Assembly: GCA_027491195.1 (NCBI GenBank)
Contig: JAIXWQ010000009.1
Coordinates: 372,001 to 436,000 of the forward strand
Length of the DNA: 64,000 bases
Origin: Cytophagaceae bacterium
GTDB lineage: Bacteria > Bacteroidota > Bacteroidia > Cytophagales > Spirosomataceae
Direction of reading: 5' to 3'
Position 1 is the stretch's first letter. Each line of letters opens with the position of its first letter. Shown piece after piece: positions 45,387 through 63,616 of the stretch. Both the position numbers and the translations under genes were made by a program. The notes beneath the pieces are model-generated. The model was not told the origin of the DNA, searched no databases, and worked only from the letters and a program-made list of their open reading frames with translations.

Positions 45387-48194
45387 ATGAAATCAATTTA
45401 CAAGTACACCAATCTAATCATTCTATTCTTAACGCTCTCTGGAGCGGCTTTTGCACAAGAAGGTACCTTACGCGGAACCATTAAGGACGCTAAAACAAAA
45501 GAAGACATTATCGGAGCAACCATTTTAGTGCAAGGCATTAATAAAGGAGCTGCAACAGACATTAACGGTTTCTTCTCTTTCGCTAAACTTCCAGCAGGAT
45601 CTTACTCTTTAAAGATCTCTTATGTAGGTTACGATTCTAAAATTTATGAAGGAGTTAAAGTAGAGGCAGGTCAAGTAACAGAATTGAACCTTGCTATCGA
45701 AGAAACGAGCTCGACTTTAGCTGAGGTGAAAGTCGTAGCACAACGTTTAACTAACACGGAGGTTTCAGTAATCTCTGAAATCAAAGCCTCTCAATTAGTT
45801 GTTAGTGGTATCTCCGCTGCACAAATCACGAAAACCTTAGACCGTACAGCGGCAGAAGTAGTGAAGCGTGTACCAGGTGTTACCATCTTCGGCGAGCGTT
45901 TTATCAACATTCGTGGTCTTAACGAGCGTTATAACACCGTTCAATTAAATAACGCCTTCGCTCCATCAATGGAAACGGATGTGCGTTCATTCTCATTCGA
46001 TATCATTCCAGCAGGTCAAATCGACCGTATTTTGGTATTCAAATCTCCATCAGCTGAAATTCCAGGTGAATTCGCAGGTGGTGTAGTAAAGATCTTTACA
46101 AAGTCTATCCCAGAAAATAATTACTTGACCTTAGACGTTTCTAGCTCATATAGAGAAGGAACAACGGGAGAGAAGTTTTTTACAACGAAAAACTCAAGCC
46201 TAGCTTGGACTGGATTTGACCAAGGGTATTTCGATTTGCCTAAATCATTTCCTATTAACAGAACGGCTTTAATCGGTTCTTCACCAGCTGGACTTGATGC
46301 GATCGGTGCATCGTTAAAAAACAATTGGCTACCTATTCAATCATCTGCTTTGCCTGATATTCGTGCCTCTCTTTCTGGTGGCCTTAAATTGAATGCTGGT
46401 GATGTAAAAATTGGAAACGTAACAGGTATCAATTACTCAAATACACGTTCAATCTTCAGAATGGAGCGTAATGATTGGGGATATTCTCAAATTGGGTCAA
46501 CGGGTGAGCCAGACGAAATTTTCTCTTTCGTAGATAATCAATATTCAAATGCGATTCGTGTGGGTGTTTCACATAACTGGTCAGCAAAGCTTCCAGGAGG
46601 ATCTGTATTTGAGTTTAAGAATTTATTCAACCAATTATCTAATACGCAGTATATCCAGCGTTCAGGATTTGATAATGGTTCTAATTGGGATATTCGTTCA
46701 TTTGATCAAGTTTTCCGGGGTATTTATACAGGTCAATTAACAGGACGTCATGAATTTCAAGATGGTAGCTTAAAAACAGATTGGATGGTAGGTTATAATG
46801 CAGCTTACCGTAACCAGCCAGATTACAAACGTTTCCGCTATAATGTGGATGGCACTAATTCAAGTTTATTTATTCCAAATGGTGCGGCACAAACATTTAT
46901 TTTAGGTCGTACGTACATCAACATGGATGAGAGTTCTTATACAGGTGCATGGAATTTAGATAAGCGAGTTAAAGTAGGTTCAGATAAGGAATTAGACTTT
47001 AAGACAGGTTTATTCTATGAAGATAAGGTACGTAATTTCGGAGCTAGAAATATTGGTTACGTAAAATCAACCCCTACCTTCCAAACGACTTTACCAATCG
47101 ATCAATTATTCTCTCCACAGAACTTTAATTCATCTACTGGAATTAAAATTGACGAGCAAACTAACCCGAATGACTCTTACAAAGCGACGAATAATTTAAT
47201 CGCAGCTTATGCATCAGTTAATTATGCAATTGGTAAGAAATTCAACGCTATTGCGGGTGTTCGTGCAGAACAAAATAGCCAAAAATTAAACTCTGCTGAC
47301 TTAGTAGGTAAGGCAATTAATTATGACAATACGCGCTTAGATTTATTGCCTTCATTGAACTTAACCTATAACTTCTCTGAGAAATCACTTCTTCGTTTAG
47401 CGTATGGTAAGACATTGAATAGACCTGAATTTAGAGAGCTTGCTCCCTTCTCGTTCTATGATTTCGTAAATAATAGAACGGTATCAGGTAACCCAACGTT
47501 GAAAAACGCAGATATTCAAAACTTTGATTTCCGTTACGAATTCTATCCAACGCCTTCAGAGTTAATTAGTATTGCTGCCTTCTACAAGGACTTTACTAAT
47601 CCAATTGAGGTTGTGTTCGCTTCAGGTGCTAATCCAATTCTTAACTTCTCAAATGCTAAATCGGCTTATTCAACAGGTTTAGAAGCAGAATTTAGAAAGA
47701 ACTTAAACGCAGCAAATCCATCATCGTTTTTAGGTAAAACAAGTTTAGTATTTAACGGAACCTACATTATCAGCCGTGTTAAGTTAGACGATGCTGTGGC
47801 AAAAGATCAATCAGATGATCGTCCATTACAAGGTCAATCACCTTACATCATCAATGCTGGTTTGAACTACAATGATGCGAAAAAAGGCCTTCAGCTTAAT
47901 TTGAATTATAATGTTATTGGTAAGCGTATTTTCGCTGTGGGTAACAACTTTGGCTCACCTTATCCAGACTGGTTTGAAATGCCTCGTAACGTAATTGATT
48001 TCAATTTTTCGAAGCAAATTTCAAAAATGTTAATGGTCAAAGGTGGAGTTAGTGACTTATTAAATCAAGGTAATACCATCTTACAAGACGGTAACCAAGA
48101 TCAAGTTTTTGACAGAAACCAAGACCAAATCATTCAGAACTATGCACCAGGTCGTGTAGTGTCTCTAGGAATTATCGTATCACCTTTTAACTAA
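45387..48194 (+). CDS. TonB-dependent receptor
   Basis: A 935-residue outer-membrane receptor. ATG 45387 is chosen: it begins the signal peptide (MKSIYKYTNLIILFLTLSGAAFAQ) and sits 30 nt after the -7 element, whereas the GTG at 45357 overlaps that element. Residues about 25-110 are a CarboxypepD-like domain (TLRGTIKDAKTKEDIIGATILV). The plug has VVKRVPGVTIFGERFINIRGLNERYNTVQLNNAF. The barrel ends RVVSLGIIVSPF. The putative Pho-type repeats upstream and the phosphatase and phosphate-permease genes downstream suggest uptake of an organic phosphorus compound (inference). Confidence 0.9.
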   Translation: MKSIYKYTNLIILFLTLSGAAFAQEGTLRGTIKDAKTKEDIIGATILVQGINKGAATDINGFFSFAKLPAGSYSLKISYVGYDSKIYEGVKVEAGQVTELNLAIEETSSTLAEVKVVAQRLTNTEVSVISEIKASQLVVSGISAAQITKTLDRTAAEVVKRVPGVTIFGERFINIRGLNERYNTVQLNNAFAPSMETDVRSFSFDIIPAGQIDRILVFKSPSAEIPGEFAGGVVKIFTKSIPENNYLTLDVSSSYREGTTGEKFFTTKNSSLAWTGFDQGYFDLPKSFPINRTALIGSSPAGLDAIGASLKNNWLPIQSSALPDIRASLSGGLKLNAGDVKIGNVTGINYSNTRSIFRMERNDWGYSQIGSTGEPDEIFSFVDNQYSNAIRVGVSHNWSAKLPGGSVFEFKNLFNQLSNTQYIQRSGFDNGSNWDIRSFDQVFRGIYTGQLTGRHEFQDGSLKTDWMVGYNAAYRNQPDYKRFRYNVDGTNSSLFIPNGAAQTFILGRTYINMDESSYTGAWNLDKRVKVGSDKELDFKTGLFYEDKVRNFGARNIGYVKSTPTFQTTLPIDQLFSPQNFNSSTGIKIDEQTNPNDSYKATNNLIAAYASVNYAIGKKFNAIAGVRAEQNSQKLNSADLVGKAINYDNTRLDLLPSLNLTYNFSEKSLLRLAYGKTLNRPEFRELAPFSFYDFVNNRTVSGNPTLKNADIQNFDFRYEFYPTPSELISIAAFYKDFTNPIEVVFASGANPILNFSNAKSAYSTGLEAEFRKNLNAANPSSFLGKTSLVFNGTYIISRVKLDDAVAKDQSDDRPLQGQSPYIINAGLNYNDAKKGLQLNLNYNVIGKRIFAVGNNFGSPYPDWFEMPRNVIDFNFSKQISKMLMVKGGVSDLLNQGNTILQDGNQDQVFDRNQDQIIQNYAPGRVVSLGIIVSPFN

Positions 48195-48230
48195 TAAATA
48201 AATTTCAACTAAATTTTAATTAAACACACA

Positions 48231-49997: not shown

Positions 49998-50007
49998 GAA
50001 TTAAACT

Positions 50008-50040
50008 AAAGGGCCACCTGTAACACAGGTGGCCCTTTTT
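50008..50040 (+). terminator. strong intrinsic terminator
   Basis: A perfect 14-bp stem, AAAGGGCCACCTGT (50008-50021) and ACAGGTGGCCCTTT (50025-50038), with loop AAC and a T run. It ends the receptor-lipoprotein unit; reduced read-through could still feed the next gene. Confidence 0.9.
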
Positions 50041-50049
50041 TATACACCA

Positions 50050-50598
50050 ATGAAAAAGATACTCGCGCCAATATTCATCAGTTTATTTATTTTTTCAGCC
50101 TGCCATTCGAAAGACGAGGTAGAATATTACTTCTCAGATGCTGAACGAGATACGCTATTAACCAATGTGATAACCTACGTTTCAGAAAATGCAACTTACG
50201 CAAATATAGACACGAGGTTTCAAAAGAAATTTAGAGCAGAATATGTGAGCCGTTTGCCGCTTTACCATTTTGTCAAATTGACCAAATTAGAAAACGGAGA
50301 ATGCTACTTTTTGCTTAGTCGCCCAGTGGCTAATTTGAAAGAATTACGTCGAGGCGTTGTAGGTAAGTTTACCTTGAAAGAAGGAAGCTTGCAGCCAGAA
50401 AATTTTGAGGAAGTGGTAAATACACCCCATTACTCAGAGGAATTAGTGGTAGAAAGAGGAAGTTTTCTTTTCAAAGAATTAATCAAGAAAGGAAACCTCA
50501 ATGAGTATTTAAAGATGGAGCATTATGTGGAGTGGCCTGATCAATACTTGAAATACGATAAAGAAAAGAAGACCTGGGTCCCTACCGGGGCACTTTAA
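50050..50598 (+). CDS. small lipoprotein of unknown function
   Basis: A 182-residue lipoprotein. The ATG at 50050 starts a clean leader (MKKILAPIFISLFIFSAC, lipid Cys 18), whereas the ORF opening at 50029 lies within the preceding terminator. The mature protein is hydrophilic and mostly helical with some strands (FHFVKLTKLENGECYFLLSRP is the nearest recognisable style; read as YHFVKLTKLENGECYFLLSR). No family is claimed. It sits between the receptor pair and the phosphatase gene, with terminators on both sides. Confidence 0.7.
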   Translation: MKKILAPIFISLFIFSACHSKDEVEYYFSDAERDTLLTNVITYVSENATYANIDTRFQKKFRAEYVSRLPLYHFVKLTKLENGECYFLLSRPVANLKELRRGVVGKFTLKEGSLQPENFEEVVNTPHYSEELVVERGSFLFKELIKKGNLNEYLKMEHYVEWPDQYLKYDKEKKTWVPTGAL

Positions 50599-50730: not shown

Positions 50731-51795
50731 ATGAACAAACTATACACTTTACTTCTAATTTTGGTTGCCGTTTCTTTCTCGGCTTTAGCACAGAAAGATT
50801 CCGATGCACGCGTCATTGTCATCACCACGGATGGTTACCGCTGGCAGGAATTATTTAATGGAATCGATACATCCATTGTTAAAATTAAGCGCTTTCACCA
50901 CGGAGATTCGGCTCGATTGATTCAGCAATATTATGCGCCTACCTTGAAGGAGAGACGGGAAAAGTTAATGCCTTTCTTCTGGGGTAAGTTAGCTGCGGCA
51001 GGACAGCTACACGGGAATAGAAACGAAGGAAGTCAAGTGGATAATGCGAATCCGTATTGGTTTTCTTATCCAGGTTATAGTGAGATCTTAACCGGTCAAG
51101 TAGATACGGCTGTCAACTCGAACGAATACAAACCTAATCCGAATACGAACTTCTTCGAATACCTGAACTCGTTGCCAGCCTACAAAGGGAAGGTGGTGGC
51201 TTTCGGTGCCTGGGATGCTTTTGATCGTATTTTGAATGAAAAAAGAGCGGGATTCCCGGTTGTGAATGCATTTGATTCTTATCCAGAATTAGAGAAGGAT
51301 CCAGAAATGAAGATGCTGGCTAACATGTTAAAAGAAACGTTCAAGCCTTTTGGTATGGCTGAATCTATTGATGTATTTACTCATTACAAGGCGATGCATT
51401 ATTTGAAAAAAAATAAGCCTAAGGCCTTATATATTTCTTATGGAGAGACAGATGAATTTGCGCATGAAGGAGCCTATAATCATTATTTAGACGCAGCGCA
51501 TCAGTTCGATGCGTGGGTAGGAGAGATTTGGGATTTTGTGAACACTGATCCAGATTACAAGGGTAAAACTACCTTGTTAATTACGACTGATCATGGTCGT
51601 GGAGATGCGATTAAAGCGCAATGGACATCGCACGGGAACAAAGTGAAAGATTGCTACCAGATCTGGTATGCGATGATTGGAGCAAATGTACCCGCTTTAG
51701 GGGAGGTTAAATCTAAGGAGCAAGTATTCCAAAAAGACTTGATTCACAAGGCTGCTAAGGCCATTGGTGTCTCATTTAAAAGTGAAGTAAAATAG
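50731..51795 (+). CDS. secreted alkaline phosphatase superfamily protein
   Basis: A 354-residue secreted enzyme (MNKLYTLLLILVAVSFSALAQ) of the alkaline phosphatase/phosphodiesterase/sulphatase superfamily. Metal-site motifs are VIVITTDGYRWQELF near the N-terminus, SYGETDEFAHEG, LLITTDHGRGD and SHGNKV. FSYPGYSEILTG holds the likely nucleophile (Ser/Thr). The exact substrate, a phosphomonoester or diester, cannot be read from sequence. Promoter, neighbours (PiT permease) and export support a role in phosphorus scavenging. Confidence 0.85.
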   Translation: MNKLYTLLLILVAVSFSALAQKDSDARVIVITTDGYRWQELFNGIDTSIVKIKRFHHGDSARLIQQYYAPTLKERREKLMPFFWGKLAAAGQLHGNRNEGSQVDNANPYWFSYPGYSEILTGQVDTAVNSNEYKPNPNTNFFEYLNSLPAYKGKVVAFGAWDAFDRILNEKRAGFPVVNAFDSYPELEKDPEMKMLANMLKETFKPFGMAESIDVFTHYKAMHYLKKNKPKALYISYGETDEFAHEGAYNHYLDAAHQFDAWVGEIWDFVNTDPDYKGKTTLLITTDHGRGDAIKAQWTSHGNKVKDCYQIWYAMIGANVPALGEVKSKEQVFQKDLIHKAAKAIGVSFKSEVK

Positions 51796-51800
51796 GGGAT

Positions 51801-51845
51801 TTAACAATTCCTTAACATGGGTAATGTAAATGCGACTTACCTTAG
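51801..51845 (+). promoter_or_regulatory. Pho-box-like pair and -7 element of the phosphate permease gene
   Basis: Units TTAACAATTCC (51801-51811) and TTAACATGGGT (51812-51822) are exact 11-bp neighbours. TACCTTAG (51838-51845) is a one-mismatch -7 element beginning 26 nt after the second unit, the same spacing as at 45324/45350. The strongest two-unit copy in the window. Confidence 0.6.
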
Positions 51846-51876
51846 TAAATTGATTTTTTATATTAAAAATATTTTT

Positions 51877-53334
51877 ATGTTCGGATTAGATCCTACGTTG
51901 TTCTTCCTACTGTGCTTCTGTTTATTAGCCGCATGTGCTTTTGAATTTGTGAATGGTTTTCACGATACGGCAAACGCAGTAGCCACTGTTATTTATACCC
52001 ACTCTTTGCGTCCTACGCAGGCAGTTGTTTGGTCTGGATTTATGAACTTTTTAGGTTTATTAACGGGAGGCGTAGGTGTGACCATGAGTATTATCGGGCT
52101 GCTCCCCACGGAATTACTCGTCGATACCAATGTGTATCATTCCATGGCCATGGCCCTTTCTTTGCTTATTTCTGCGATTATTTGGAACCTTGGAACGTGG
52201 TATTTTGGTATTCCGGCTTCTAGCTCTCATACCTTGATTGGCTCCATTATTGGTATTGGTTTAGGTCACGCATTATTGCCTGAAGCTTCAAATAAAGGTA
52301 TTTCAGCCTTGAATTGGGATAAAGTAATTGAAATCGGACAAGCCCTTTTATTGTCGCCTTTGTTTGGTTTTGCCTTGGCGATTATCTTGATGTACATCCT
52401 AAAGAAGACGGTTACGAATAAGGAGATATTTAAAGAGCCAAAGAAAAAGTCACCACCACCCTTGTGGATTCGTTCGATTTTAATCGCGACTTGTACCTTG
52501 GTTTCGTTCTTCCATGGTCGTAATGATGGCCAAAAAGGAATCGGCCTTGTGATGGTTATTTTGATTGCCTTCTTGCCAGGTTATTTCGCTATCAATACGA
52601 CCTTAGATATGCAGATGGTGAAGTCAAGTTTAGCTACGGTTCAAACGGTGACGGCTAAGATTGACACCATTCCTTTATCGGAAAAGGAGCGCGGTAATTT
52701 AGCTGATTTGAAACATTCAGCTTCAGATTTAGCGATCATCACGTCTCAAAATTTAACTCCAGCTACGCTGACAACGGATCAAAAATTTGCTATCCGTAAA
52801 GCGGCCTTGACGATTAATAAGCATTCGAAAAAATTGATTGAAAGTGAATCAGTAGCACTTTCGGAAAATGATAAATCGGCTTGGAAAAAAGCAACAGCAG
52901 GTTCAAAAGCTCCCTTCTTTACTTTTGGAGCTTCATCTAGCACTGGTATTGCTGGTGTAACTGATTTTGCTCCTAACTGGGTCATGTGGATGGTGGCATT
53001 ATCATTGGGCTTAGGTACCATGATCGGTTGGAAACGTATTGTGGTAACCATCGGAGAGAAGATCGGTAAAGACCACTTGACCTATGCGCAAGGTGCATCT
53101 GCTGAATTAATTGCTTCCTTAACGATTGGTTTAGCGACGGCTTATAAGTGGCCTGTAAGTACAACACACGTATTGAGTTCAGGTATTGCCGGAACGATGG
53201 TAGCACAACGTGGTATTAAAAACCTGCAAGGTGATACGGTTAAGAATATCGTACTAGCGTGGATTTTAACCTTGCCTGTAACGGTTGTTTTATCAGCTGG
53301 TTTGTTCTTATTCTTCCGTTGGATTACGGGATAA
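51877..53334 (+). CDS. inorganic phosphate transporter (PiT family)
   Basis: A 485-residue inner-membrane phosphate permease. ATG 51877 is preferred over 51817 because it gives the usual PiT start (MFGLDPTLFFLL) and leaves room for the upstream promoter. The two PiT halves are marked by EFVNGFHDTANAVATVIYT (first) and KWPVSTTHVLSSGIAGTMVAQRG (second); FHGRNDGQKGIGLVMV is also typical. A long hydrophilic insert (about residues 255-350) between the halves is common in Bacteroidota. Phosphate released outside by the neighbouring phosphatases would be imported here. Confidence 0.95.
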   Translation: MFGLDPTLFFLLCFCLLAACAFEFVNGFHDTANAVATVIYTHSLRPTQAVVWSGFMNFLGLLTGGVGVTMSIIGLLPTELLVDTNVYHSMAMALSLLISAIIWNLGTWYFGIPASSSHTLIGSIIGIGLGHALLPEASNKGISALNWDKVIEIGQALLLSPLFGFALAIILMYILKKTVTNKEIFKEPKKKSPPPLWIRSILIATCTLVSFFHGRNDGQKGIGLVMVILIAFLPGYFAINTTLDMQMVKSSLATVQTVTAKIDTIPLSEKERGNLADLKHSASDLAIITSQNLTPATLTTDQKFAIRKAALTINKHSKKLIESESVALSENDKSAWKKATAGSKAPFFTFGASSSTGIAGVTDFAPNWVMWMVALSLGLGTMIGWKRIVVTIGEKIGKDHLTYAQGASAELIASLTIGLATAYKWPVSTTHVLSSGIAGTMVAQRGIKNLQGDTVKNIVLAWILTLPVTVVLSAGLFLFFRWITG

Positions 53335-54570
53335 GATTCCTTTGAAATAAATCCACGATCCGGCAGACAGGGCAAGTCCTGCGAAACCGAGGATAGTGAT
53401 CCAAGAGAAAAAGAGTTGCGGCAGGTTCCAATTTGGAAAAATAGAACCTGCCGCAATTAACAATACATTGTATCCTAAGTAGCCAATCGAGTCTACGATA
53501 TACATCAAGAAACCGATATTTGCTTTGTGTCTTGTGATCGCAATCATTCGTTCGAACACAGACGTCGTTATCGTTAAATATGGCAAGTAAATGCCGAATC
53601 CGGTTAACACAATTAACCAAAAGCTATTCAAGCCTTCTCTGCCCCAAAGTCCCGCAATCACCAGTAATACATAGCCTAAAGCGATGGCGCCTAAGCTGAT
53701 AAAAAAGGCCGTATAATTTCGCTTGAATAGGACTAAACTTCCATTGATTGCCAAGATTCCCACCGTTACCCAAATCTCCGTTTGAGAATAGATAGAAGGC
53801 ACTCCTTGGTAGCCTAAATACTGCCAAATTTCAGGCGCAAAATCCGATCGAATACCGCGTAATAAAGACGCAAAAAGATACAGCAAAGCAATGGAAAGTA
53901 TGCCTGGCCATAATTGCTTGACTAATTGTACGCGGTCTTTTTGGGTCATCGGTTGACGTTCCGCGCGATCTGCTATTTCTTCCGCTGTAGGGCGCGGAAT
54001 CATCGTGAGCATCCACACGAAAAATAGAAAGGGTAAGGCATATAATAGCCCAGCTGAAAAGGGCATCCAATTTTCTGCTACGCCATAATTCAATAAAGAA
54101 ACACCCACCGATTTAGAAACGCCATCCGCTAAAATGAAACTGCTTCCTAAAGCCGCGATGAATAATTCCGTATTCCTTTTGCCCTCTAGAAAGCCTTGTA
54201 TGTAGCCGAAAATCATGCCCAGCGGGAGGCCGTTGATCAATAAAAAGAGTAGGTTGAAAGGTTTTGGCACTAATCCAAAACCGAGTAATGCGAGTTCTGC
54301 AACGACAATACTGAGAATAATGGCCCTCGCTCTTTTCTCCCAGGTGATGGAGGATACAAAAAATATGCCACACCATTTCGAGAGCATATAGCCCGCAATT
54401 TGGGAAGAGATGAGGATGGATTTCCAATGGATTCCCATGAAAAACTGTTCCTCATAGGTGCCCGCTGTAAAAGGTTTGCGAAATCCGTACACGCAGAAAT
54501 AACAGCCAAAAGCCGCGACCATCGACCAAGCCGGATGCCAAGTCCATTTATTCTGATTTGCCGCTATCAT
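53308..54570 (-). CDS. MFS-like membrane protein (DUF5690 type)
   Basis: A 420-residue polytopic protein with about 12 helices. YFCVYGFRKPFTAGTYEE near the N-terminus resembles the organophosphate:phosphate antiporter group, and the whole fits the DUF5690 family as recalled. It overlaps the HD-oxygenase gene by 4 bp and is co-transcribed after it, so import of a phosphonate or phosphorylated compound is likely (inference). It ends 27 bp inside the PiT gene end (convergent overlap). Confidence 0.82.
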   Translation of the reverse strand: MIAANQNKWTWHPAWSMVAAFGCYFCVYGFRKPFTAGTYEEQFFMGIHWKSILISSQIAGYMLSKWCGIFFVSSITWEKRARAIILSIVVAELALLGFGLVPKPFNLLFLLINGLPLGMIFGYIQGFLEGKRNTELFIAALGSSFILADGVSKSVGVSLLNYGVAENWMPFSAGLLYALPFLFFVWMLTMIPRPTAEEIADRAERQPMTQKDRVQLVKQLWPGILSIALLYLFASLLRGIRSDFAPEIWQYLGYQGVPSIYSQTEIWVTVGILAINGSLVLFKRNYTAFFISLGAIALGYVLLVIAGLWGREGLNSFWLIVLTGFGIYLPYLTITTSVFERMIAITRHKANIGFLMYIVDSIGYLGYNVLLIAAGSIFPNWNLPQLFFSWITILGFAGLALSAGSWIYFKGILSRNPTEE

Positions 54571-55112
54571 TTCAAATTTTCCCTCAGTAGCTCAGCATAA
54601 AATTCGACAGGCTCTACCTGAAGATTCGGGATCTTAGCTAGGTCATCAAAGCGACGTAATCGCACCGCATCTTGATAGAATGGATTCGATTCAAATGCCT
54701 TGCATTCGATAGGGGACATGGGTCCACCCTGTAATTCCAAACTGATAACCGAAGGCTCACTTAACAAGGCAAAATAATCTTCCTCTACCGCACACAAATA
54801 GCGCTTAGCTGCCACATGTAAATGCACAGGCTCTGACACCGCTGGTACGAAATATTTTTGTAGAAAACGATAGCCTAATTCCTCGTGCAAATCATCAATT
54901 CCCTGATCCGGCGCATCATCTGGAAGCGCATGTAATAAGTGCCCTACATCGTGAAGTAGAGAGGCAACCACTAAACTGCTCGGCGCTCCTTCTGCCATCG
55001 CTAAATGGGCGGATTGCAAAGCATGTTCCCCTTGAGTAACAGGTTCTCCTCCATATTCCGAGTCACCTTGCTCATTAAACAGTTGAATGATTTTTAAAAC
55101 GGGATCTTTCAT
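54567..55112 (-). CDS. PhnZ-like HD-domain phosphonate oxygenase
   Basis: A 181-residue HD-superfamily protein matching the phosphonate-degradation oxygenase type. PhnZ uses a mixed-valence di-iron site to split (R)-1-hydroxy-2-aminoethylphosphonate into glycine and phosphate. Candidate metal ligands are His30, His54-Asp55 (LLHDVGH), His76, His97 or His99 and Asp156 or Asp157. Tyr20 and Glu23 (EYGGEPVTQGEHALQ) sit where PhnZ has its substrate-gating Tyr and Glu, keeping a constant offset of four residues. The usual partner PhnY, a 2-oxoglutarate dioxygenase, is not in the window. It forms an operon with the DUF5690-type gene. Confidence 0.82.
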   Translation of the reverse strand: MKDPVLKIIQLFNEQGDSEYGGEPVTQGEHALQSAHLAMAEGAPSSLVVASLLHDVGHLLHALPDDAPDQGIDDLHEELGYRFLQKYFVPAVSEPVHLHVAAKRYLCAVEEDYFALLSEPSVISLELQGGPMSPIECKAFESNPFYQDAVRLRRFDDLAKIPNLQVEPVEFYAELLRENLK

Positions 55113-55219: not shown

Positions 55220-55660
55220 ATGACTGCAATCCCCTTTATTCGTCCCGCTATTTCCACGGATGAAAATTCCATTTTAGCTCTTTTAGAGGAGCTTGAAAAT
55301 CGGGTATTTGATGCGGCAATTTTTACGCAAATTTTCCAAAACTATCTAGCGGATTCTTTGACCTTCCTGAAAGTGGCCGTTGCAGCAGACGAGCGCATTT
55401 GCGGTTTTATCTCTTGCAAAGGACAGCCCCTCCTGCACCACGAAGGGCTCGTATTTGAAATTCAAGAATTGATCGTGACCGCGTCACATCAGGGCAGGGG
55501 AGTGGGTCGTCAATTAATTGCTTCACTGAAGCCTGAACTTACTCAACTAGGAGCGAAATCATTAGAAGTTACCTCAAACAAAAGACGCAAAAATGCCCAC
55601 GCATTTTACCAATCCGTGGGCTTTCTAAATTCGCATGAAAAGTTTACGATTTACTTTTGA
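55220..55660 (+). CDS. GNAT family N-acetyltransferase
   Basis: A 146-residue acetyltransferase of usual GNAT length. The acetyl-CoA pyrophosphate loop is ELIVTASHQGRGVGRQLI, and the C-terminal AHAFYQSVGF strand-helix is diagnostic. In phosphonate clusters some GNAT enzymes acetylate aminophosphonates (as PhnO does); this one could do so, but nothing in the sequence shows its substrate. It overlaps the convergent alkaline phosphatase gene by 10 bp. Confidence 0.87.
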   Translation: MTAIPFIRPAISTDENSILALLEELENRVFDAAIFTQIFQNYLADSLTFLKVAVAADERICGFISCKGQPLLHHEGLVFEIQELIVTASHQGRGVGRQLIASLKPELTQLGAKSLEVTSNKRRKNAHAFYQSVGFLNSHEKFTIYF

Positions 55661-56703
55661 CCTAGCTGCAAAGCCTGCTTGATTTTCGTAAATATATCGT
55701 AGTTATTGTAGATGCCTGCGAAAGCCTCTGATCCAGGCCCGAAGGCAAAAACGGGGATCATTTGACCCGTATGCCCTTTCGTTGTGAAGGCACCTTTTAC
55801 CTCGCCCGTTTTCATATTACCGCCCATCAAGGCAAATCCTCCTGTCTCGTGATCAGCTGTAATCACCACTAAGGTTTCTTTGTTTTTAGCGGCAAAATCG
55901 AGTGCATAACCAATGCTTTTATCGAAGTCCACCATCTCGGTAACTATGTAATCAGCGTCATTTGCATGTCCACCCCAATCGATCTGTGAACCCTCAATCA
56001 TCACGAAGAATCCTTTCTTGTTTTGGCCTAAAATCTCGAGTGATTTTTTTGCCGAATACAAAAGCGCATCCCCTCTGCCTTCCATTACTTTAATCGGATT
56101 TTCTTCTGCGTACAAGGCCACTAATTTGCCTTTGTTCACGCCATCTAAAGTTAAATCTGAGTGAACTTGGTAGCCTTTTTTACGCAAGCTGTCTAACAGA
56201 TTTAAACCATCTTTTCGCTTCTCGAAATACTTTCTGCCACCTCCTATCACCACATCGATATCCGTCTTTAAAAAGTCCCCTGCGATTTCTTCGTGCATGG
56301 AACGCGTACGTTGATGCGCGATGAAAGAGGAAGGAGTGGCATCGGTAATATCACAAGTGCTTACTAGACCCGTTGCGAGACCTTTCTTCTCCGCCAGTTC
56401 GAGCAAAGTCGTCGAAGGAACTTTCAAGGAATCCAATCCAATGGCTCCATTATAGGTTTGTTTCCCGGTGGCAAAGGCCGTTGCTCCCGCAGCTGAATCC
56501 GTCACATAATTATCAGATGCCTGGTTTTTGTGAAACCCTATTACCTTGATGCGCTCTAGGTTTAGGTGACCTCGGTTCGCCGTTAGGCCCGCATAAATTT
56601 GGCTGACACCCATGCCATCTCCGATTAAGAAAATGACATTTTTAGGGGCTTTTTGGGCCATGATTTGTGTGCTGATGAAGCACAAAAGGAAAAGTTTTTT
56701 CAT
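55651..56703 (-). CDS. secreted alkaline phosphatase
   Basis: A 350-residue PhoA-type alkaline phosphatase with a signal peptide (MKKLFLLCFISTQIMA). The nucleophile Ser is in NYVTDSAAGATAFATGKQTYNG. Metal ligands lie in IFLIGDGMG, IEGSQIDWGGHANDAD, VITADHETGG and KGHTGQMIPVFAFGPGSEAF. It releases phosphate from monoesters in the periplasm or outside. It overlaps the flavoenzyme gene by 4 bp as the last gene of a three-gene operon, so phosphatase and phosphonate enzymes are expressed together. Confidence 0.95.
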   Translation of the reverse strand: MKKLFLLCFISTQIMAQKAPKNVIFLIGDGMGVSQIYAGLTANRGHLNLERIKVIGFHKNQASDNYVTDSAAGATAFATGKQTYNGAIGLDSLKVPSTTLLELAEKKGLATGLVSTCDITDATPSSFIAHQRTRSMHEEIAGDFLKTDIDVVIGGGRKYFEKRKDGLNLLDSLRKKGYQVHSDLTLDGVNKGKLVALYAEENPIKVMEGRGDALLYSAKKSLEILGQNKKGFFVMIEGSQIDWGGHANDADYIVTEMVDFDKSIGYALDFAAKNKETLVVITADHETGGFALMGGNMKTGEVKGAFTTKGHTGQMIPVFAFGPGSEAFAGIYNNYDIFTKIKQALQLGQK

Positions 56704-57857
56704 GAGTATAATTTCGAAATGTATTCTGCTGTAAAACCAGGGGAGGTTGTCATGCCTTTTCCACCTATGCCGTTAATGATGTGAATGATATCGTCCACTA
56801 CTTTCGTGTAGACCTCTGATTGCGTGCCTTGTAAATAAAAGCCAGCCCAGGTAGAATCCACAGTCCAATTATCTAGGTTTGTAATTCGTTTCGCCTCCTG
56901 TAGCATCATATCATTGATCTCTGAGGATACTTCAAACCCAAAATTCGCTTGCTCATTCGCCGGCACATATTCATGGGAATCCCCTAAAATGATGGAGCCG
57001 TCATCTGCTTGTTTGAACAAAATGTGGATGCCTTTTGCCTGTAATAATTTCTGCTCTGAGGAGGTGTAGATTTTTTTAAATGAAGGGCAAGAATGAAAGC
57101 TTTCATATCTTCTAATCGTCAAGCCCGTTAAAATATTCGATTTCAAAATCTTCTTTTGCGGGGCTAATCGCATCATCTGCAATTTGCTAATTTTTAATTC
57201 CGAAGCTGGATAGTGTTCAGGTAGTAAAAATTGGGTATCGCGGCCGTTAGCAAGGATTACTTGATCTCCCCAAAACGTTTGTTTTTTCGCCGTACTAATC
57301 ATCGCAATACCGCGTTTTTTCTCCACGGCCACGACTGGGCATAAATTATGGTAATGTAATCCAAGGTGCTTAATCATAAATTCCCGCACACGGTGCACCA
57401 TCACTAGGGGATTTAAAGAAGCTTCTTCTGGGATGAATAAGCCGCCTTTTACGTAGTCTTTTTTAAAATGGGGATTGATCTCTAGCGTTTCAGAGGCCGT
57501 GTACAAACGGGAGGTATAATCCCGGTCTTTGAACAGTTGAAACATCTCCTCTAACAAGGTCAATTCTTGGTCATCAGACGCGAGATACCAAGATCCATTC
57601 TTTACCACTGAAATATCCGTCTCTTCTTGAAGCTCTTTGTAAATTTTCAGCGATTTTCTGCCGTAATTAAACCAGGTATCTAGGGCTTGACCAGAGGGAA
57701 CCGCCTGTCCAAAATTCCGGAAACTCGCCTCGTAAGGTTGTACATCCTTTTCTAAAAGCAAGACACTTTTTCCTTTTCTCAGCGCATGGTAGGCACAAAA
57801 AGTACCAATAATACCACCACCTACGATCACTAAATCGTACTTTCGATTCTTATACAT
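56700..57857 (-). CDS. FAD-dependent amine oxidase-like enzyme (TIGR03364 type)
   Basis: A 385-residue flavoprotein of the DAAO superfamily. The dinucleotide fold is LVIVGGGIIGTFCAYHAL, then LLLEKD. ASFRNFGQAVPSGQ near residue 48 is typical of the TIGR03364 group found beside phosphonatase-like genes. The C-terminal part is HIINGIGGKGMTTSPGFTAEYIS. Family members are associated with oxidative deamination of 2-aminoethylphosphonate or its N-alkyl forms to phosphonoacetaldehyde (recalled). It overlaps the PhnX-like hydrolase by 8 bp, the enzyme that would act next. The protein starts MYKNRKYD with no leader, so it is cytoplasmic. Confidence 0.85.
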   Translation of the reverse strand: MYKNRKYDLVIVGGGIIGTFCAYHALRKGKSVLLLEKDVQPYEASFRNFGQAVPSGQALDTWFNYGRKSLKIYKELQEETDISVVKNGSWYLASDDQELTLLEEMFQLFKDRDYTSRLYTASETLEINPHFKKDYVKGGLFIPEEASLNPLVMVHRVREFMIKHLGLHYHNLCPVVAVEKKRGIAMISTAKKQTFWGDQVILANGRDTQFLLPEHYPASELKISKLQMMRLAPQKKILKSNILTGLTIRRYESFHSCPSFKKIYTSSEQKLLQAKGIHILFKQADDGSIILGDSHEYVPANEQANFGFEVSSEINDMMLQEAKRITNLDNWTVDSTWAGFYLQGTQSEVYTKVVDDIIHIINGIGGKGMTTSPGFTAEYISKLYS

Positions 57858-58545
57858 AAGTTAAAACATCGGATATTTTCTCGATCAGTCCATCATTTGG
57901 ATGTCCTTCTAATTGTTCACGTGTATGAGTGCCATTGCACACACCTAAAGCAATGCCTACGCCAGCATTTTTGCCGAAAGCTAAATCCACCGGAGTGTCT
58001 CCCACGTTCAATACTTCTGAAAGATCTGCGATGCCTAATTTTTCCATCGCATAGTAAATCATCGCAGGGGAAGGGCGACCTTCGCCGTTCACTTCATCCG
58101 GAGTAACGGAAAGGTGAATACCTGAAGACGCATCTAGGGAGGGAACCCAGCCTAAACGGCCTAAAATGATATCGGCTACCTCGCGGTAAAATCCAGTGGT
58201 CAGCGCGATTTTAATTCCTTTCGCATGCAAGGCCTCAAACAATACCAAGCAACCCTCCGTAGGATAGACGGGTTGCGTGCGGTAATGGTTTTCTAGAATC
58301 TCCTTAAAATCGGCATAGGACTTGGCAGCCAGTTCTGTAATTCGCGGATCACCTTCGCCTACTTGTTCCGTCCACAATAGGGTAAAAACATAGAGTTTAG
58401 CATAGCCCTGCAAGGCTAAAATACGCTCATCGCTCGAGTGCAATCCATTCTTCTGAGCGGCTAATTTGAAGCAATGTTCGACTTCGTGCTGGTCTTGGAC
58501 GGTGGTGCCCGCCATGTCTAAAACGACTAATTTGATTTGATTCAT
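57850..58545 (-). CDS. phosphonatase-like hydrolase (PhnX-like, HAD superfamily)
   Basis: A 231-residue HAD-fold enzyme. The nucleophile Asp10 lies in LVVLDMAGTTVQD. Lys50 (LQGYAKLYV) aligns, by eye and within one residue offset, with the Schiff-base Lys of true phosphonoacetaldehyde hydrolase. ALTTGF, EGRPSPAMIYYAMEKLG and NVGDTPVDLAFG complete the HAD motifs. The expected reaction is phosphonoacetaldehyde to acetaldehyde and phosphate. It is the first gene of the operon with the flavoenzyme and alkaline phosphatase, divergent from susC. Confidence 0.87.
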   Translation of the reverse strand: MNQIKLVVLDMAGTTVQDQHEVEHCFKLAAQKNGLHSSDERILALQGYAKLYVFTLLWTEQVGEGDPRITELAAKSYADFKEILENHYRTQPVYPTEGCLVLFEALHAKGIKIALTTGFYREVADIILGRLGWVPSLDASSGIHLSVTPDEVNGEGRPSPAMIYYAMEKLGIADLSEVLNVGDTPVDLAFGKNAGVGIALGVCNGTHTREQLEGHPNDGLIEKISDVLTYV

Positions 58546-58615: not shown

Positions 58616-58695
58616 GGTATTTTTTAAAGATTTTCTGCGTCTAATTTTGGTTTAAAACGAAGCCTTAACACAGGCGTAATACTCGGCTGTTTTTC

Positions 58696-58751: not shown

Positions 58752-58778
58752 TGGCAAATATTAAATAAACAAACTCAT

Positions 58779-61700
58779 ATGAAAAACAATCTACAAATGG
58801 TTTTTGCTAAAATGAGCCCTAAATCGTTGATTTGGCTGGTTTTTGCAATGATTACTACGGTAAGTATGACCTCTTTTGGTCAATCTCGTAGTGTGAAGGG
58901 GACGGTTACTTCTTTAGAAGAGAAGGCGGGCATCCCGGGTGTCACTATCCGAGTTAAAGGAAGCACGAAAGGCTCCATGACGGATGCAAATGGTCAATAT
59001 TCGATTGCCGTTTCAGGAAATGAAGTTTTACAATTTTCCATGATTGGCTACGCTGCGAAAGAAGTAGCCGTAGGAAATGTTTCGGAATTAAATGTCGTTC
59101 TAGCACAAGATCAAAAGCAATTACAAGAAGTAGTTGTGACGGCCTTAGGTATCAAGAAAGACGTTCGTAAAATAGGTGTGGCTATCCAAACAGTGGACGG
59201 AGCTAACACAATCAAAGCACGCGAGCCAAACGCAATCAACGCATTATCAGGTCGAGTAGCTGGTTTAACGATCGGTGCTCAGCCAGAATTATTACGTAAG
59301 CCGAATATCTCGTTACGTGGTAGCTCTACTGTTTTATATGTAGTAGATGGTGTGCCTATTAACTCTGATACTTGGAATATCTCCGCAGATGATATCGAAA
59401 CTTACTCGGTTTTAAAAGGAGCTTCCGCTTCAGCATTATATGGTTTCCGCGGAAAGAATGGTGCGATCTTAATCACGACTAAACGTGGTTCAGCTGACAA
59501 GCGTGGTTTCTCTGTAGAAGTAAACTCATCTACTCAATTACAATCAGGTTTCTACGCGATCCCAGAAGTACAAGACGAATATGGTCCTGGTGATCACGGT
59601 TCTTATGCTTTCGGTGATGGTAAAGGGGGTGGCTTGAACGATGGTGACTACGATGGTGGTTGGGGTCCACGCTTTAACGGACAATTAATTCCCCAGTACG
59701 ATTCTCCAGTGGATCCTATCACAGGTAAGCGTGCAGGTACTCCTTGGATTGCTCGTGGTAAAGACAACTTGAAGCGTTTCTTAGAGACGGGTATCTTGTC
59801 TACGAACAACGTTTCAGTAGCTGCAACGGGTGAGAAATACAACTTGCGTTTCTCTACTTCTCATATCTACCAAAAAGGTATTGTTCCTAATACCCAATTG
59901 AATATGACGAACTTCAACATTACGGCTGATTACAAGTTCTCAAACAAATTAAAGTTTGAGTCGAACTTACAATACAACCGTCAATACACGCCTAACATTC
60001 CAGATGTTAACTACGGTCCTAACTCGATCATTTATAACATTATCTATTGGGCAGGAGCTGACTGGAATATCGATGACATGCGTAATTACTGGCAAAAAGG
60101 GAAGGAAGGCGTTCAGCAGATTTATGCAGAATACCAACGTTACAATAACCCATATTTCATGTCATACGAGTGGTTACGTTCTCACTACAAGACAGATATC
60201 GTAGGTCAAGCTTCTTTACGTTACACATTTAACGAGAACTTGAATTTATTAGCACGTACACAAGTAACGACTTGGGACATGTTACGCACAGAGAAATTCC
60301 CTTATTCTGCAGGAACCTACGGTCGTGATGAGCGTCGTGGTGATTACCGCGAAGATCGCCGTTCTTTATTCGAGAACAACACGGAATTATTATTAACATT
60401 CGACAAGGATTTATTACCAGGCTTCAATACAAAAATCAACGCAGGTGCATCACAACGTATTTTCCAATACAAGTCGATGTTTGCTACGACGAACTACTTG
60501 AACGTTCCAGGTTTGTATAACTTCTCTAACTCTGCATTACCTGTACAAGTGGCGAACTTTGGTTCTGACATGCAAGTGCTTTCTGCTTACTACTCTGCAG
60601 ACTTTTCTTACAAGAAATTCTTGACGGTATTTGCAACTGGACGTTTGGATAAATTATCTACGTTACCAGCTGGAAAGAACTCGTTCTTCTACCCATCATT
60701 CGGTGCGGTTTCAGTCGTGTCTGACTACGTGAATTTACCAGAAGTTGTTTCTTTCTTGAAATTCCGTGGTTCGTATGCAAACGTGAAAGATGGTTTAACA
60801 TCATCTACTATTGATAACCGTATGGGAACGTATTCTGGAGAAAACTATAACTCTCCATATGATGGTCCTTCTTACCAAAACAACACGGTTTACTCAACTG
60901 GTTTCTACTACAATAACCAAACGGGTGCTACATACGGTAACGAATTAAGCAATCCAAACTTGAATCCATCAGAGACATCTCAGACGGAATTCGGTATGGA
61001 CTTACGTTTATTCAAAAACCGTATCGGAATTGATGCTGCTTACTTCATCTCGAATGATGGTCCTTCGATCTTCTCTTTACCTATCTCTTCTACTTCAGGT
61101 TATACCTCTGCTTTAGTGAATGGTATCAAGACTCAGAAGAAAGGGTATGAAATCTCTGTAACAGGTACACCTATTCAAACAGCAGACTTTAGCTGGGATG
61201 TATTAGCTAACTACTCTACTTTCGAGCAAAGGTTAACAGAAATTTACCCAGGTATCACGAACTTGAACACCTTCTTAAAAGTAGGCGATCGCACAGACAA
61301 AATTTACGGTTCTGCATTCGTTCGTACACCAGATGGTCAAATCATTAATACTTCAGGTGGAATTCCAGAAAGATTAACGGGAGCGCAATCACAGTACTTA
61401 GGTAACGCAAATCCTGATTTTGTGTTTGGTTTAAATAACAAGTTTACTTACAAGAATGTAAGCTTAAGCATCTTATTTGATGGCCGTATCGGTGGTAAAA
61501 TCATTAACTACACACAACAACAAGCGTACCGTGGTGGTCGCCACATCGGAACGACACAAGGTATTTTCGCAGCTGCTCGTCCACAAGACGCTTTAGGTGT
61601 GAAGGCTTTTGTAGGTCAAGGTGTAGTAGTTTCAAATGGCGTTGCGATCAAGTATGATGCAAATGGTAAAGTAACGAACTTCTCTGAATTACAATTCGCT

Positions 61701-62000
61701 CCTAACACGGTTAAGACGTATGTACAAGATTACGTAGGACGTTATTACAACACGAACGAAGGTAACTTAATGGATCGCTCTTTCGGAATGTTGAAAGAAG
61801 TGGTATTTGGTGTTAAGCTTCCTACTAAGTGGTTTGGGAAAGCAGTATCTGGCGCGAACGTTTCTTTCGTAGGTCGTAACTTATTGTACTTCGCTGAGAA
61901 GAAAGATATTGACTTGTCTCAGTATATCACGGATGGAGTATCTGGTTCACAAACTCCTTCTGTTAGAAGCTACGGAGTTAACTTAAACTTCACATTCTAA
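58779..62000 (+). CDS. SusC/RagA family TonB-linked outer-membrane protein
   Basis: A 1073-residue SusC-type transporter. ATG 58779 is chosen; it follows the -7 element by 27 nt, whereas the TTG at 58749 overlaps it. It has a signal peptide (cleavage near SFGQ), a CarboxypepD-like domain (SVKGTVTSLEEKAGIPGVTIRV), then a TonB-box-like segment and plug (VVVTALGIKKDVRKIG, NALSGRVAGLTIG, KGASASALYGFRGKNGAILITTKRG), and the barrel ending YGVNLNFTF. It works with the SusD-like lipoprotein 29 bp downstream. Divergence from a phosphonate operon suggests an organophosphorus ligand rather than a glycan; no glycoside hydrolase is nearby. Confidence 0.93.
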   Translation: MKNNLQMVFAKMSPKSLIWLVFAMITTVSMTSFGQSRSVKGTVTSLEEKAGIPGVTIRVKGSTKGSMTDANGQYSIAVSGNEVLQFSMIGYAAKEVAVGNVSELNVVLAQDQKQLQEVVVTALGIKKDVRKIGVAIQTVDGANTIKAREPNAINALSGRVAGLTIGAQPELLRKPNISLRGSSTVLYVVDGVPINSDTWNISADDIETYSVLKGASASALYGFRGKNGAILITTKRGSADKRGFSVEVNSSTQLQSGFYAIPEVQDEYGPGDHGSYAFGDGKGGGLNDGDYDGGWGPRFNGQLIPQYDSPVDPITGKRAGTPWIARGKDNLKRFLETGILSTNNVSVAATGEKYNLRFSTSHIYQKGIVPNTQLNMTNFNITADYKFSNKLKFESNLQYNRQYTPNIPDVNYGPNSIIYNIIYWAGADWNIDDMRNYWQKGKEGVQQIYAEYQRYNNPYFMSYEWLRSHYKTDIVGQASLRYTFNENLNLLARTQVTTWDMLRTEKFPYSAGTYGRDERRGDYREDRRSLFENNTELLLTFDKDLLPGFNTKINAGASQRIFQYKSMFATTNYLNVPGLYNFSNSALPVQVANFGSDMQVLSAYYSADFSYKKFLTVFATGRLDKLSTLPAGKNSFFYPSFGAVSVVSDYVNLPEVVSFLKFRGSYANVKDGLTSSTIDNRMGTYSGENYNSPYDGPSYQNNTVYSTGFYYNNQTGATYGNELSNPNLNPSETSQTEFGMDLRLFKNRIGIDAAYFISNDGPSIFSLPISSTSGYTSALVNGIKTQKKGYEISVTGTPIQTADFSWDVLANYSTFEQRLTEIYPGITNLNTFLKVGDRTDKIYGSAFVRTPDGQIINTSGGIPERLTGAQSQYLGNANPDFVFGLNNKFTYKNVSLSILFDGRIGGKIINYTQQQAYRGGRHIGTTQGIFAAARPQDALGVKAFVGQGVVVSNGVAIKYDANGKVTNFSELQFAPNTVKTYVQDYVGRYYNTNEGNLMDRSFGMLKEVVFGVKLPTKWFGKAVSGANVSFVGRNLLYFAEKKDIDLSQYITDGVSGSQTPSVRSYGVNLNFTF

Positions 62001-62029
62001 TATTTTCATTTCTATAAATGTCACAAACA

Positions 62030-63616
62030 ATGAAAGTTAAAAATATCATTTTAGGATTGTTAGGGTTCTCCTTACTTGCTTTAAGCAGTTGCGAGAAGAC
62101 CTTCGATCAGTTAGAGAAAGACTCTAACCGTGCGGTACAAGTCCCTGCTTCTTTAGTGTTGCAGTCGATTGAATACAACGTAATGAACGATAATGGTCGT
62201 CCATTCTCAGCAGAGATGCGTTGGAATCAGTTCTATTGCTCTAACTATAATTATTATGCAAATAATGAATATAATTTAGGCCAAATGCCCAACCAATATA
62301 CTACGTTGAAAAACGTAGTAAAGATGGAAGAAGAAGCGAAGAAATTGGGCTTAGCCGATGTGAATGGTTACTCTGCCTTAGGCAAGTTCTTCCGTGCTTA
62401 TTTCTTCGATCAAATGTCGAAGCGTGTGGGTGATTTACCTATGACGGATGCGTTAAAAGGAATTGCTAACACAGCTCCGAAGTACGATTCACAGAAAGTA
62501 ATCTACGTTCAAATCTTAAAGTGGTTAGATGATGCAAATGCAGATTTGACTACCTTGATCGCGAAGGGTGAAACAGTTTCAGGAGATTTCTATTTCGGTG
62601 GAGATTTGAAGAAATGGCAAAAAGTAGTGAACGCCTACCGTTTACGTGTATTGATCACGTTGTCTAAAAAAGATACAGATGCAGAATTAGGTGTTAAAGC
62701 GAAGTTTGCTGAAATGGTAACGAACGCTACTAAATACCCAATAATGGCGTCTAACGCGGAGTCTTTACAATTTGTTTGGAACTCATTCAATAAGTATCCA
62801 TCTAACCCGGATAACTTTGGTTTCGATGCGACACGTCAAAACATGGCTTCTACTTATGTAGGGTTCTTAACTTCTATTCAAGATCCACGTGTGATGGTGA
62901 CTTGTGAGCCAGCAGGTTCGGATTTGAAAGCAGGAAAATTGCCATCTGATTACACCGCTTACCGTGGTGCTGGTTCAGGTGATAATATTGATGACATGGC
63001 GAAGAATGCAGGTCTTTCGAATGGGGCAGGTTTTGCTCCTGGGATCTATTCTTTCCAAAGTCGTTCACGTTACTACCAAAACTACACAGGTGAAAATACA
63101 TTCATCGTGGGATATCCTGAATTATGTTTCAACATCGCTGAAGGATATGCACGTGGTTGGGCTACAGGTTCTGCCGAGGATTGGTACAAGAAAGGTATCA
63201 AAGCTTCTCATGCATTCTATGGTATCGTAGAAGGAGCAAATACATTCACGTATTCTAAAACGGGTACAAGAGATGCAGCTGACCAAACGAAGTATTCAGT
63301 TAATTTTAACTTCGATACGTATTATGCACAGTCAGCTGTTGCTTATGATGCAACGAATGCTATCCAGAAAATCGTTTCTCAGAAATACGCTGCTTTCTTC
63401 ATGAACTCAGGTATGGAAGCATATTTCAACTGGAGAAGAACAGGTTTCCCAGCATTCTCTTCAGGAGTAGGTAACGGAAACTCAAATCGTATCGCGCAAC
63501 GTTGGATTTATCCAACCACTGAGCGTACGGCAAATGCGACAAACTACACAGCAGCTATTACTAGCCAATACGCTGGGAAAGATGATATCAACGATATCAT
63601 GTGGTTGAACAAATAA
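62030..63616 (+). CDS. SusD/RagB-like nutrient-binding lipoprotein
   Basis: A 528-residue lipoprotein of the SusD-like_2 group. ATG 62030 starts a clean leader (MKVKNIILGLLGFSLLALSSC); the ATG at 62018 would add four residues and is also possible. The helical TPR-like body is seen in YSALGKFFRAYFFDQMSKRVGDLPMTDALKG and YPELCFNIAEGYARGWA. It caps the SusC barrel and binds the ligand at the surface. A strong terminator follows. Confidence 0.92.
   Translation: MKVKNIILGLLGFSLLALSSCEKTFDQLEKDSNRAVQVPASLVLQSIEYNVMNDNGRPFSAEMRWNQFYCSNYNYYANNEYNLGQMPNQYTTLKNVVKMEEEAKKLGLADVNGYSALGKFFRAYFFDQMSKRVGDLPMTDALKGIANTAPKYDSQKVIYVQILKWLDDANADLTTLIAKGETVSGDFYFGGDLKKWQKVVNAYRLRVLITLSKKDTDAELGVKAKFAEMVTNATKYPIMASNAESLQFVWNSFNKYPSNPDNFGFDATRQNMASTYVGFLTSIQDPRVMVTCEPAGSDLKAGKLPSDYTAYRGAGSGDNIDDMAKNAGLSNGAGFAPGIYSFQSRSRYYQNYTGENTFIVGYPELCFNIAEGYARGWATGSAEDWYKKGIKASHAFYGIVEGANTFTYSKTGTRDAADQTKYSVNFNFDTYYAQSAVAYDATNAIQKIVSQKYAAFFMNSGMEAYFNWRRTGFPAFSSGVGNGNSNRIAQRWIYPTTERTANATNYTAAITSQYAGKDDINDIMWLNK

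Follow-up and report, generated by a model that had tools for sequence, protein, structure and literature searches.

A candidate phosphonate-scavenging island with a SusC/SusD pair and a DUF5690 membrane protein in a freshwater Bacteroidota bacterium

The island and its genes

The window analysed here is a stretch of 64,000 nucleotides (contig JAIXWQ010000009.1, positions 372,001 to 436,000) from a genome of 2.49 Mb that is 98% complete, and the system in question is a putative phosphorus-scavenging island at window positions 45387-63616. Its host is a freshwater Bacteroidota bacterium. The nearest named records, judged by the identity of the DUF5690 protein (90-72%), are uncultured Cytophagaceae, Aquirufa, and metagenome-assembled genomes (MAGs) that carry the label Spirosoma fluviale. 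In some environments phosphonates make up an important source of phosphorus (PMC10590968), and phosphonate transporters are known for few bacteria (PMC10574752).

Families were assigned by Pfam and NCBIfam scans of the translated open reading frames (ORFs), which covered 17 window proteins including 13 of the island (Table 1). The genes that an earlier note on this DNA had listed are present as long ORFs. A PhnO-like acetyltransferase inside the island was missing from that list. The island probably consists of two adjoining phosphorus-scavenging modules, A (45387-53334) and B (53308-63616). The phnX-pbfD-phoA and the hd-DUF5690 ORFs of module B overlap by 4-8 bases, in the fashion of operons. 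The family score of SusC was computed from 58776, one codon 5' of the first ATG of its frame.

Table 1 Features of the island, in window coordinates
Feature	Position	Strand	Family, score and remarks
Pho-box-like direct-repeat array	45291..45329	+	four TTAACA-like units, 11-bp period; 5' of TonB receptor
TonB-dependent receptor	45387..48194	+	PF00593, PF07715, PF13715; TIGR04056 56.7 bits (cut-off 368), not SusC type by score
Putative surface lipoprotein, 588 aa	48231..49997	+	conserved Cys25 after signal-like start; no Pfam/NCBIfam match
Putative lipoprotein, 183 aa	50047..50598	+	no Pfam/NCBIfam match
W9, alkaline-phosphatase-superfamily enzyme	50731..51795	+	PF01676 31 bits; signal-like start
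Two exact TTAACA units	51801..51817	+	11-bp period; directly 5' of pitA
PitA-like inorganic phosphate transporter	51817..53334	+	PF01384 292 bits
DUF5690 membrane protein	53308..54570	-	PF18943 403 bits; predicted MFS fold; proposed phosphonate importer
PhnZ/TmpB-type HD-domain oxygenase (Phn-HD)	54567..55112	-	TIGR03276 215.0 bits (cut-off 214.6)
PhnO-like GNAT acetyltransferase	55220..55660	+	78.9 bits (cut-off 142)
Alkaline phosphatase (PhoA)	55651..56703	-	PF00245; signal-like start
PbfD-type FAD oxidoreductase	56700..57857	-	TIGR03364 343.6 bits (cut-off 285.1); proposed AEP / N-methyl-AEP oxidase
PhnX-like HAD hydrolase	57850..58545	-	TIGR03351 174.3 bits (cut-off 218.9); conserved Asp10 and Lys50
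SusC/RagA-type TonB-linked porin	58779..62000	+	TIGR04056 469.6 bits (cut-off 368.25); first ATG of frame at 58779
SusD-like surface lipoprotein	62030..63616	+	PF12771 206 bits; clade tied to phosphonate genes

Predicted phosphonate enzymes of module B

The flavoenzyme lies above the curated cut-off of TIGR03364, which is also the label of A. baumannii PbfD1 (PMC10590968). PbfD enzymes convert N-methyl-2-aminoethylphosphonate (N-methyl-AEP) to phosphonoacetaldehyde and replace PhnW, and PbfD2 also uses 2-aminoethylphosphonate (AEP) itself (PMC10590968). No PhnW above the cut-off was found in this genome. By analogy, we propose that the PbfD protein of the window is an oxidase of AEP or N-methyl-AEP. 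The earlier note had led the product of the flavoenzyme, phosphonoacetaldehyde, on to PhnX, and this order is consistent with the published PbfD chemistry (PMC10590968).

The PhnX-like hydrolase scores below the cut-off of its closest model, TIGR03351. Its Asp10 is kept in 48 of 49 relatives and its Lys50 in all 49, and Lys50 aligns with a lysine of the solved phosphonatases. We take the two residues to be the catalytic aspartate and the Schiff-base lysine of phosphonatases.

The HD oxygenase is barely above the cut-off of TIGR03276. Its only matches in the PDB are TmpB (132 bits, the best) and PhnZ (97 bits), and ten residues (Tyr20, Glu23, His30, His54, Asp55, His58, His76, His99, Lys103 and Asp156) are identical in 51 of 51 sequences. 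A hydroxylase partner of the PhnY or TmpA type was found neither near the HD gene nor above the cut-off anywhere in the genome; of its three PhyH proteins one reaches 32.5 of the 500 bits of a PhnY model and the other two match none. Among the matches listed for the 40 genomes with an HD match, a PhyH gene adjoins the HD gene in two (G185:C191 and G264:C363, where G, C and L denote genomes, contigs and loci of our collections). Since no PhnY or TmpA was found and PhnZ is highly specific for (R)-alpha-hydroxyphosphonates (PMC10574752), the HD oxygenase here probably uses hydroxyphosphonates that are imported as such.

For the GNAT protein, the best of all NCBIfam models is aminoalkylphosphonate N-acetyltransferase, followed by a model at 35.9 bits, and the score stays under the cut-off of that best model. 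The protein is 36% identical to E. coli PhnO over 137 residues. Of ten close relatives, eight carry the gene (L149, L151, L152, L154-L158), and the L150 and L153 loci begin beyond it. PhnO acetylates AEP and other aminoalkylphosphonates (PMC3463581) and detoxifies 1-aminoalkylphosphonates (PMC10574752).

A regulator of the XRE-cupin type, weakly PuuR-like, recurs beside phosphonate genes in L045 (12016-12600) and 12 other loci; it is a possible substrate-sensing repressor.

The SusC/SusD pair

The link between the SusC/SusD pair and phosphonate catabolism was examined with a profile of 17 phosphonate-linked SusD proteins, which was run over a draw of 395 evenly sampled genomes of the class, scoring the best 3 candidates per genome. 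The scores showed 21 matches of at least 527 bits, then a gap, with the next match at 373 bits. For nineteen of the 21 top matches, which come from six families, HD, PbfD or DUF5690 is encoded no more than 10 kb away; 17 of the 21 were seeds of the profile. At the lower-scoring loci (20 of the next 21 matches, one of two in G073:C2 being left out) none of the three genes was found within up to 6 genes on each side (0/20). The link that the earlier note had drawn between the pair and phosphonate catabolism is supported, and the neighbourhood conservation whose absence it had named as refuting was found for the right-hand module: the top SusD matches show it in six families of the class.

A tree of 55 SusD rows was calculated after dropping the duplicates L143 and L245 and SusD proteins shorter than 440 residues. 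In it, 29 linked rows and two exceptions (G035 and G380:C8) formed a clade of 31 with a support of 100/100, and none of the 21 second-tier rows (two from L275) fell within it. The linked SusD proteins of L042, L043 and L228 lie outside this clade and beside the same enzymes, which suggests that they were recruited separately.

A phosphoesterase is encoded directly downstream of SusD in 20 of the 32 linked rows. These enzymes belong to several unrelated families (W9 in 11 rows, PF04185 in 6, PF00149 in 2 and PF01663 in 1). The corresponding count was 7/21 for the second-tier rows, 5/7 in the group neighbouring the phosphonate clade and 2/14 in the others, with three second-tier rows left out of the downstream Pfam scan (for L265 and L273 the downstream gene is on the opposite strand, and for L275_2 it is a SusC). 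The five enzymes of the neighbour group are of the Exo_endo_phos, PLC, GDPD, metallophosphatase and type I phosphodiesterase types. The group's own support is weak (90/49), and together with the phosphonate clade it forms a clade of 38 rows with a support of 100/100. In the lineage of the window none of the six loci seen has a phosphoesterase immediately after SusD, and the window itself ends there; the W9 enzyme and PhoA, phosphatases of PF01676 and PF00245, are encoded elsewhere in the island, alongside the SusC-SusD pair. A search of W9 against the PDB found nothing under 0.05. Because the sister group adjoins phosphoesterases, the phosphonate SusCDs probably descend from organophosphate SusCDs. 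The cargo of the clade is likely organophosphorus and not glycan, and it may consist of esterified phosphonates. The second-tier SusCD loci L266-L271 and L281, with a phosphoesterase directly downstream, are probable further organophosphate loci.

In a broader reading, SusCD and phosphatases would form a general organophosphate locus of the PUS type for phospholipid head-groups or phosphodiesters, and the phosphonate enzymes would hitch-hike in the same low-phosphate regulon. The downstream enzymes of the neighbour group would fit it, as would G035, where the sequence retrieved around SusC-SusD-W9 contains no phosphonate enzyme, and the F. johnsoniae PusCD loci beside diesterases, which respond to phosphate depletion (PMC8115612). 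We hold this reading to be possible and rather unlikely: 29 of the 31 clade rows come from loci with phosphonate genes, in G114 and G242, where PbfD and PhnX sit on other contigs, the HD oxygenase is still next to SusCD, and the SusDs outside the clade were found beside the same enzymes.

DUF5690 as a candidate importer

In the draw, 36 of the 395 genomes exceeded the TIGR03364 cut-off and 56 carried DUF5690. All 36 PbfD genomes had DUF5690, where 5.1 were expected (hypergeometric probability 5e-37 when counted per genome and 2e-26 per genus, with 27 genera; both values ignore kinship, related genomes not being independent, and rest on genome lists compiled by hand). Weak TIGR03364 matches in G346 and G284, under the cut-off and without DUF5690, were left out of this count. 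The grouping of PbfD with DUF5690 is far beyond chance. DUF5690 is also present in 37 of the 40 genomes with an HD match. PbfD, PhnX, PhnW or HD was encoded within 10 kb of DUF5690 in 42 of 61 loci of the draw (one DUF5690 per locus, fragments excluded from 64 match rows, L060 and L065 dropped for overlap with L143 and L144) and in 46 of 72 loci of a separate collection of named loci, 72 of its 80 loci having a recognised DUF5690 ORF. Such neighbours were seen in Bacteroidota, Planctomycetota, Verrucomicrobiota and Acidobacteriota.

The AlphaFold model of DUF5690 is mostly helical (pLDDT 93). Its top Foldseek match is the glucose-6-phosphate transporter SLC37A2 and its top VIA-align match SLC37A4 (Z 34.5, rmsd 3.2, 361 residues aligned). 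DgoT, sialin and others also reach Z 30-32, so that the fold of the major facilitator superfamily (MFS) is firm in the model and the placement in the organophosphate:phosphate antiporter (OPA) branch is likely. When aligned by hhalign with nine E. coli MFS proteins, DUF5690 gave weak E-values for UhpT (0.0055), UhpC (0.014), DgoT (0.027) and GlpT (0.033), and 0.16-0.62 for the other five. In the weak UhpT alignment, the invariant Arg31 falls on the R-K motif at the end of transmembrane segment 1. This arginine binds phosphate in GlpT and UhpT. The DUF5690 profile run against the PDB sequences gave only a chance match and no solved OPA protein, and the word DUF5690 is absent from the 5.39 million papers searched. 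From the co-occurrence with PbfD in 36 of 36 genomes, the phosphonate-enzyme neighbours in four phyla and the SLC37-like predicted fold, the previously unassigned family DUF5690 is likely a phosphonate importer at the inner membrane.

It might instead be a general organophosphate:phosphate exchanger, or an exporter that relieves the cell of the phosphate freed by the pathways. The nearest folds are indeed sugar-phosphate transporters of the SLC37 family, and in 19 of the 61 draw loci the surrounding 10 kb contain none of the four enzymes; seven of these loci have a HisJ-type PHP phosphatase next to DUF5690. The constant company of PbfD, the repeated adjacency to PbfD, PhnX, PhnW or HD across phyla, and a window in which none of the 17 proteins scanned is an ABC phosphonate-binding protein make such a role unlikely.

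The seven loci with the PHP phosphatase are L107, L110, L113, L115, L120, L128 and L141; the enzyme also occurs inside the phosphonate clusters L108 and L111 and might have a role in organophosphate or phosphonate use. A DUF5690 protein over the cut-off is carried by Caulobacter vibrioides, from the control list.

The left-hand module

The earlier note had treated all these genes as one island. This holds for the right-hand module with its conservation in six families, and is less clear for the left-hand part, whose TonB receptor and lipoprotein adjoin phosphonate genes in nine close relatives, those with loci long enough to include them (L149-L155, L157 and L158).

Among 156 other loci, 11 contain a homologue of the 588-residue lipoprotein, namely the nine close relatives, L129 and L203. 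In L129 (2969-4690) the homologue lies some 4.6 kb from DUF5690 and is accompanied by a receptor of the same cluster, and in L203 (4834-5883), from a Verrucomicrobium MAG, it directly adjoins DUF5690; neither locus has a phosphonate enzyme. The presence of homologues near DUF5690 in these distant genomes is a hint that the lipoprotein family also serves phosphonate or organophosphate uptake. A receptor of the same cluster occurs in L140 as well, and with a looser receptor model 19 of 157 loci, counting the window, have a TonB receptor near DUF5690. The predicted structure of the lipoprotein is beta-rich and of low confidence (pLDDT 68), with small beta-sandwich modules as best matches and a poor alignment to pectate lyase at rank 4. 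At most, the protein is a possible low-phosphate lipoprotein of the FI/ElpS type.

Direct repeats like those in front of the receptor resemble PhoB/PhoP boxes. With at most one mismatch, the array pattern gave 2 overlapping matches in the window against a shuffle mean of 0.32, and 3 of 100 shuffles gave as many. Elsewhere in the genome the exact three-unit TAAC pattern is found once more, and the reversed-pattern control also gave 1. Of nine relatives scanned, three have a three-unit array before the same receptor gene (L149, L150 and L151); L155 and L157 have instead a weak array before the PhnO-like gene, and in L129 an array stands before an unrelated gene. Judged from the repeats, module A is probably induced by low phosphate via the 11-bp array. 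A similar array was considered for the phosphonate SusC genes and rejected as specific to them: with a three-unit pattern and at most 4 mismatches, 11 of 32 SusC upstream regions matched against 38 of 578 for other genes, but so did 4 of 18 control SusC regions (p 0.52).

The second triple TAAC array of the genome, of 11-bp period, lies at G000:C3:454710-454735, about 19 kb beyond the window. To the left of the island, at 41386-44649, a TetR regulator, a glyoxalase-like protein, a zinc alcohol dehydrogenase and an MFS transporter form a small cluster that is probably unrelated.

Proposed route and its weighing

Module B would serve the use of aminophosphonates, and module A would be a phosphatase/PitA set that is likely induced by low phosphate; we regard this reading, together with the route below, as fairly probable. 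In the proposed route, SusC and SusD catch the substrate at the cell surface and pass it to the periplasm, where secreted phosphoesterases would remove esters. DUF5690, as an MFS protein resembling the organophosphate antiporters, would take the small phosphonate into the cytoplasm. There, PbfD would convert AEP or its N-methyl form to phosphonoacetaldehyde, which the PhnX-like enzyme would cleave to acetaldehyde and phosphate. Separately, the HD oxygenase would cleave phosphonates that are already hydroxylated, and the PhnO-like protein would acetylate aminophosphonates. Module A would contribute PitA, a phosphatase and the TonB receptor with its lipoprotein, and low phosphate would probably activate it by way of the 11-bp array. 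What the analysis itself establishes are the gene families, the catalytic residues and neighbourhoods with their conservation, the co-occurrence, the predicted fold and the repeat array; all transport and enzyme steps, the cargo of SusCD and the regulation are inferred.

We tentatively extend this to a more specific model. A SusCD clade derived from organophosphate SusCDs would import esterified phosphonates, such as fragments of phosphonolipids or phosphonoglycans, an exchangeable secreted phosphoesterase would release the aminophosphonate there in the periplasmic space, and DUF5690 would be a new family of antiporter-like permeases found across phyla that feeds PbfD/PhnX or the HD oxygenase. 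If true, this would be a complete phosphonate route from surface to cytoplasm in Bacteroidota, with a permease common to Planctomycetota, Verrucomicrobiota and Acidobacteriota.

Several observations weigh against the proposed route. The PhnX-like protein is far under the cut-off of the phosphonatase model TIGR01422 (88.1 vs 220 bits). Of the four top SusD matches that were not seeds of the profile, G114:C4 and G242:C14 adjoin HD, and G035 and G380:C8 adjoin no phosphonate gene, the phosphonate cluster of G380 being on a different contig, C1. Free AEP could by its size pass ordinary porins and has no obvious need of a SusCD. The DUF5690 loci that lack all four enzymes in the surrounding 10 kb (19/61 in the draw and 26/72 in the named collection, some of them cut by contig ends) mean that DUF5690 may transport other organophosphates. 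A second MFS protein (PF07690) is encoded at 43462-44649, and the search for an ABC phosphonate-binding protein, negative for the 17 window proteins, was not extended to PhnCDE, AepXVW or AepP in the genome. The array before the TonB receptor is absent in 6 of the 9 relatives, and before phnX or susC no low-phosphate array exceeded the control level.

That SusCD is an ordinary glycan locus and a chance neighbour is very improbable: SusC/SusD families mostly belong to glycan systems and the genome has 9 SusC over the cut-off, but no glycoside hydrolase is among the 13 island proteins scanned, and both the phosphonate neighbours of the top SusD matches and the phosphoesterases downstream of the linked SusD rows speak against it.

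Taken together, the earlier interpretation is supported in part: the SusCD-phosphonate link and the PbfD/PhnX route find support, and the unity of the island is less clear.

Comparison with known systems

To the earlier note, a SusCD locus devoted to phosphonates or organophosphates would be a notable variation. The novelty is less than it supposed, since SusCD loci with phosphonate enzymes have already been mentioned for Flavobacterium (PMC8115612). The island resembles the PusCD/PUS loci of that genus, where a SusCD-like pair is accompanied by phosphatases in place of carbohydrate-active enzymes, and module A resembles PUSIII, which pairs a TonB receptor with a low-phosphate lipoprotein (PMC8115612). 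It differs from PUS in its SusD family, which is PF12771 here and PF07980/PF14322 in PusD1/PusD2, and the available text of the PUS account names no phosphonate enzymes, transporter family or SusD clade (PMC8115612). In the literature searched on SusC/SusD with phosphonates, on Planctomycete PbfD transporters and on outer-membrane AEP uptake in Bacteroidota, no title describes such a system.

As in the hydrolytic PbfD/PhnX pathway, a TIGR03364 flavoenzyme stands beside a PhnX-type enzyme without PhnW (PMC10590968). Unlike that pathway, the island adds SusCD, DUF5690, a PhnZ-like oxygenase without PhnY and a PhnO-like protein, and the PhnX-like protein here scores under the phosphonatase cut-off. 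With the oxidative PhnY/PhnZ and TmpA/TmpB pathways it shares an HD oxygenase of TIGR03276, whose best structure match is TmpB, and it differs from them in having no hydroxylase partner, neither beside the HD gene nor over the PhnY/TmpA cut-off in the genome. The likely origin of the SusD clade in a lineage linked to phosphoesterases, the occurrence of the HD oxygenase without PhnY and the PhnO-like gene are new as far as our searches reach, and the assignment of DUF5690 as a candidate permease and the SusD clade seem new as well.

A known AEP permease, AepP, is a relative of GlpT (PMC8316502), a degree of similarity that DUF5690 does not reach. Like the AepP/GlpT antiporters, DUF5690 is a candidate single-component MFS permease, with an R-K motif weakly aligned to that of UhpT; unlike them, it is a separate Pfam family whose profile matches no solved OPA protein significantly. 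As a permease candidate, together with the SusCD clade, it would make phosphonate use easier to spot in genomes that have no known transporter for these compounds.

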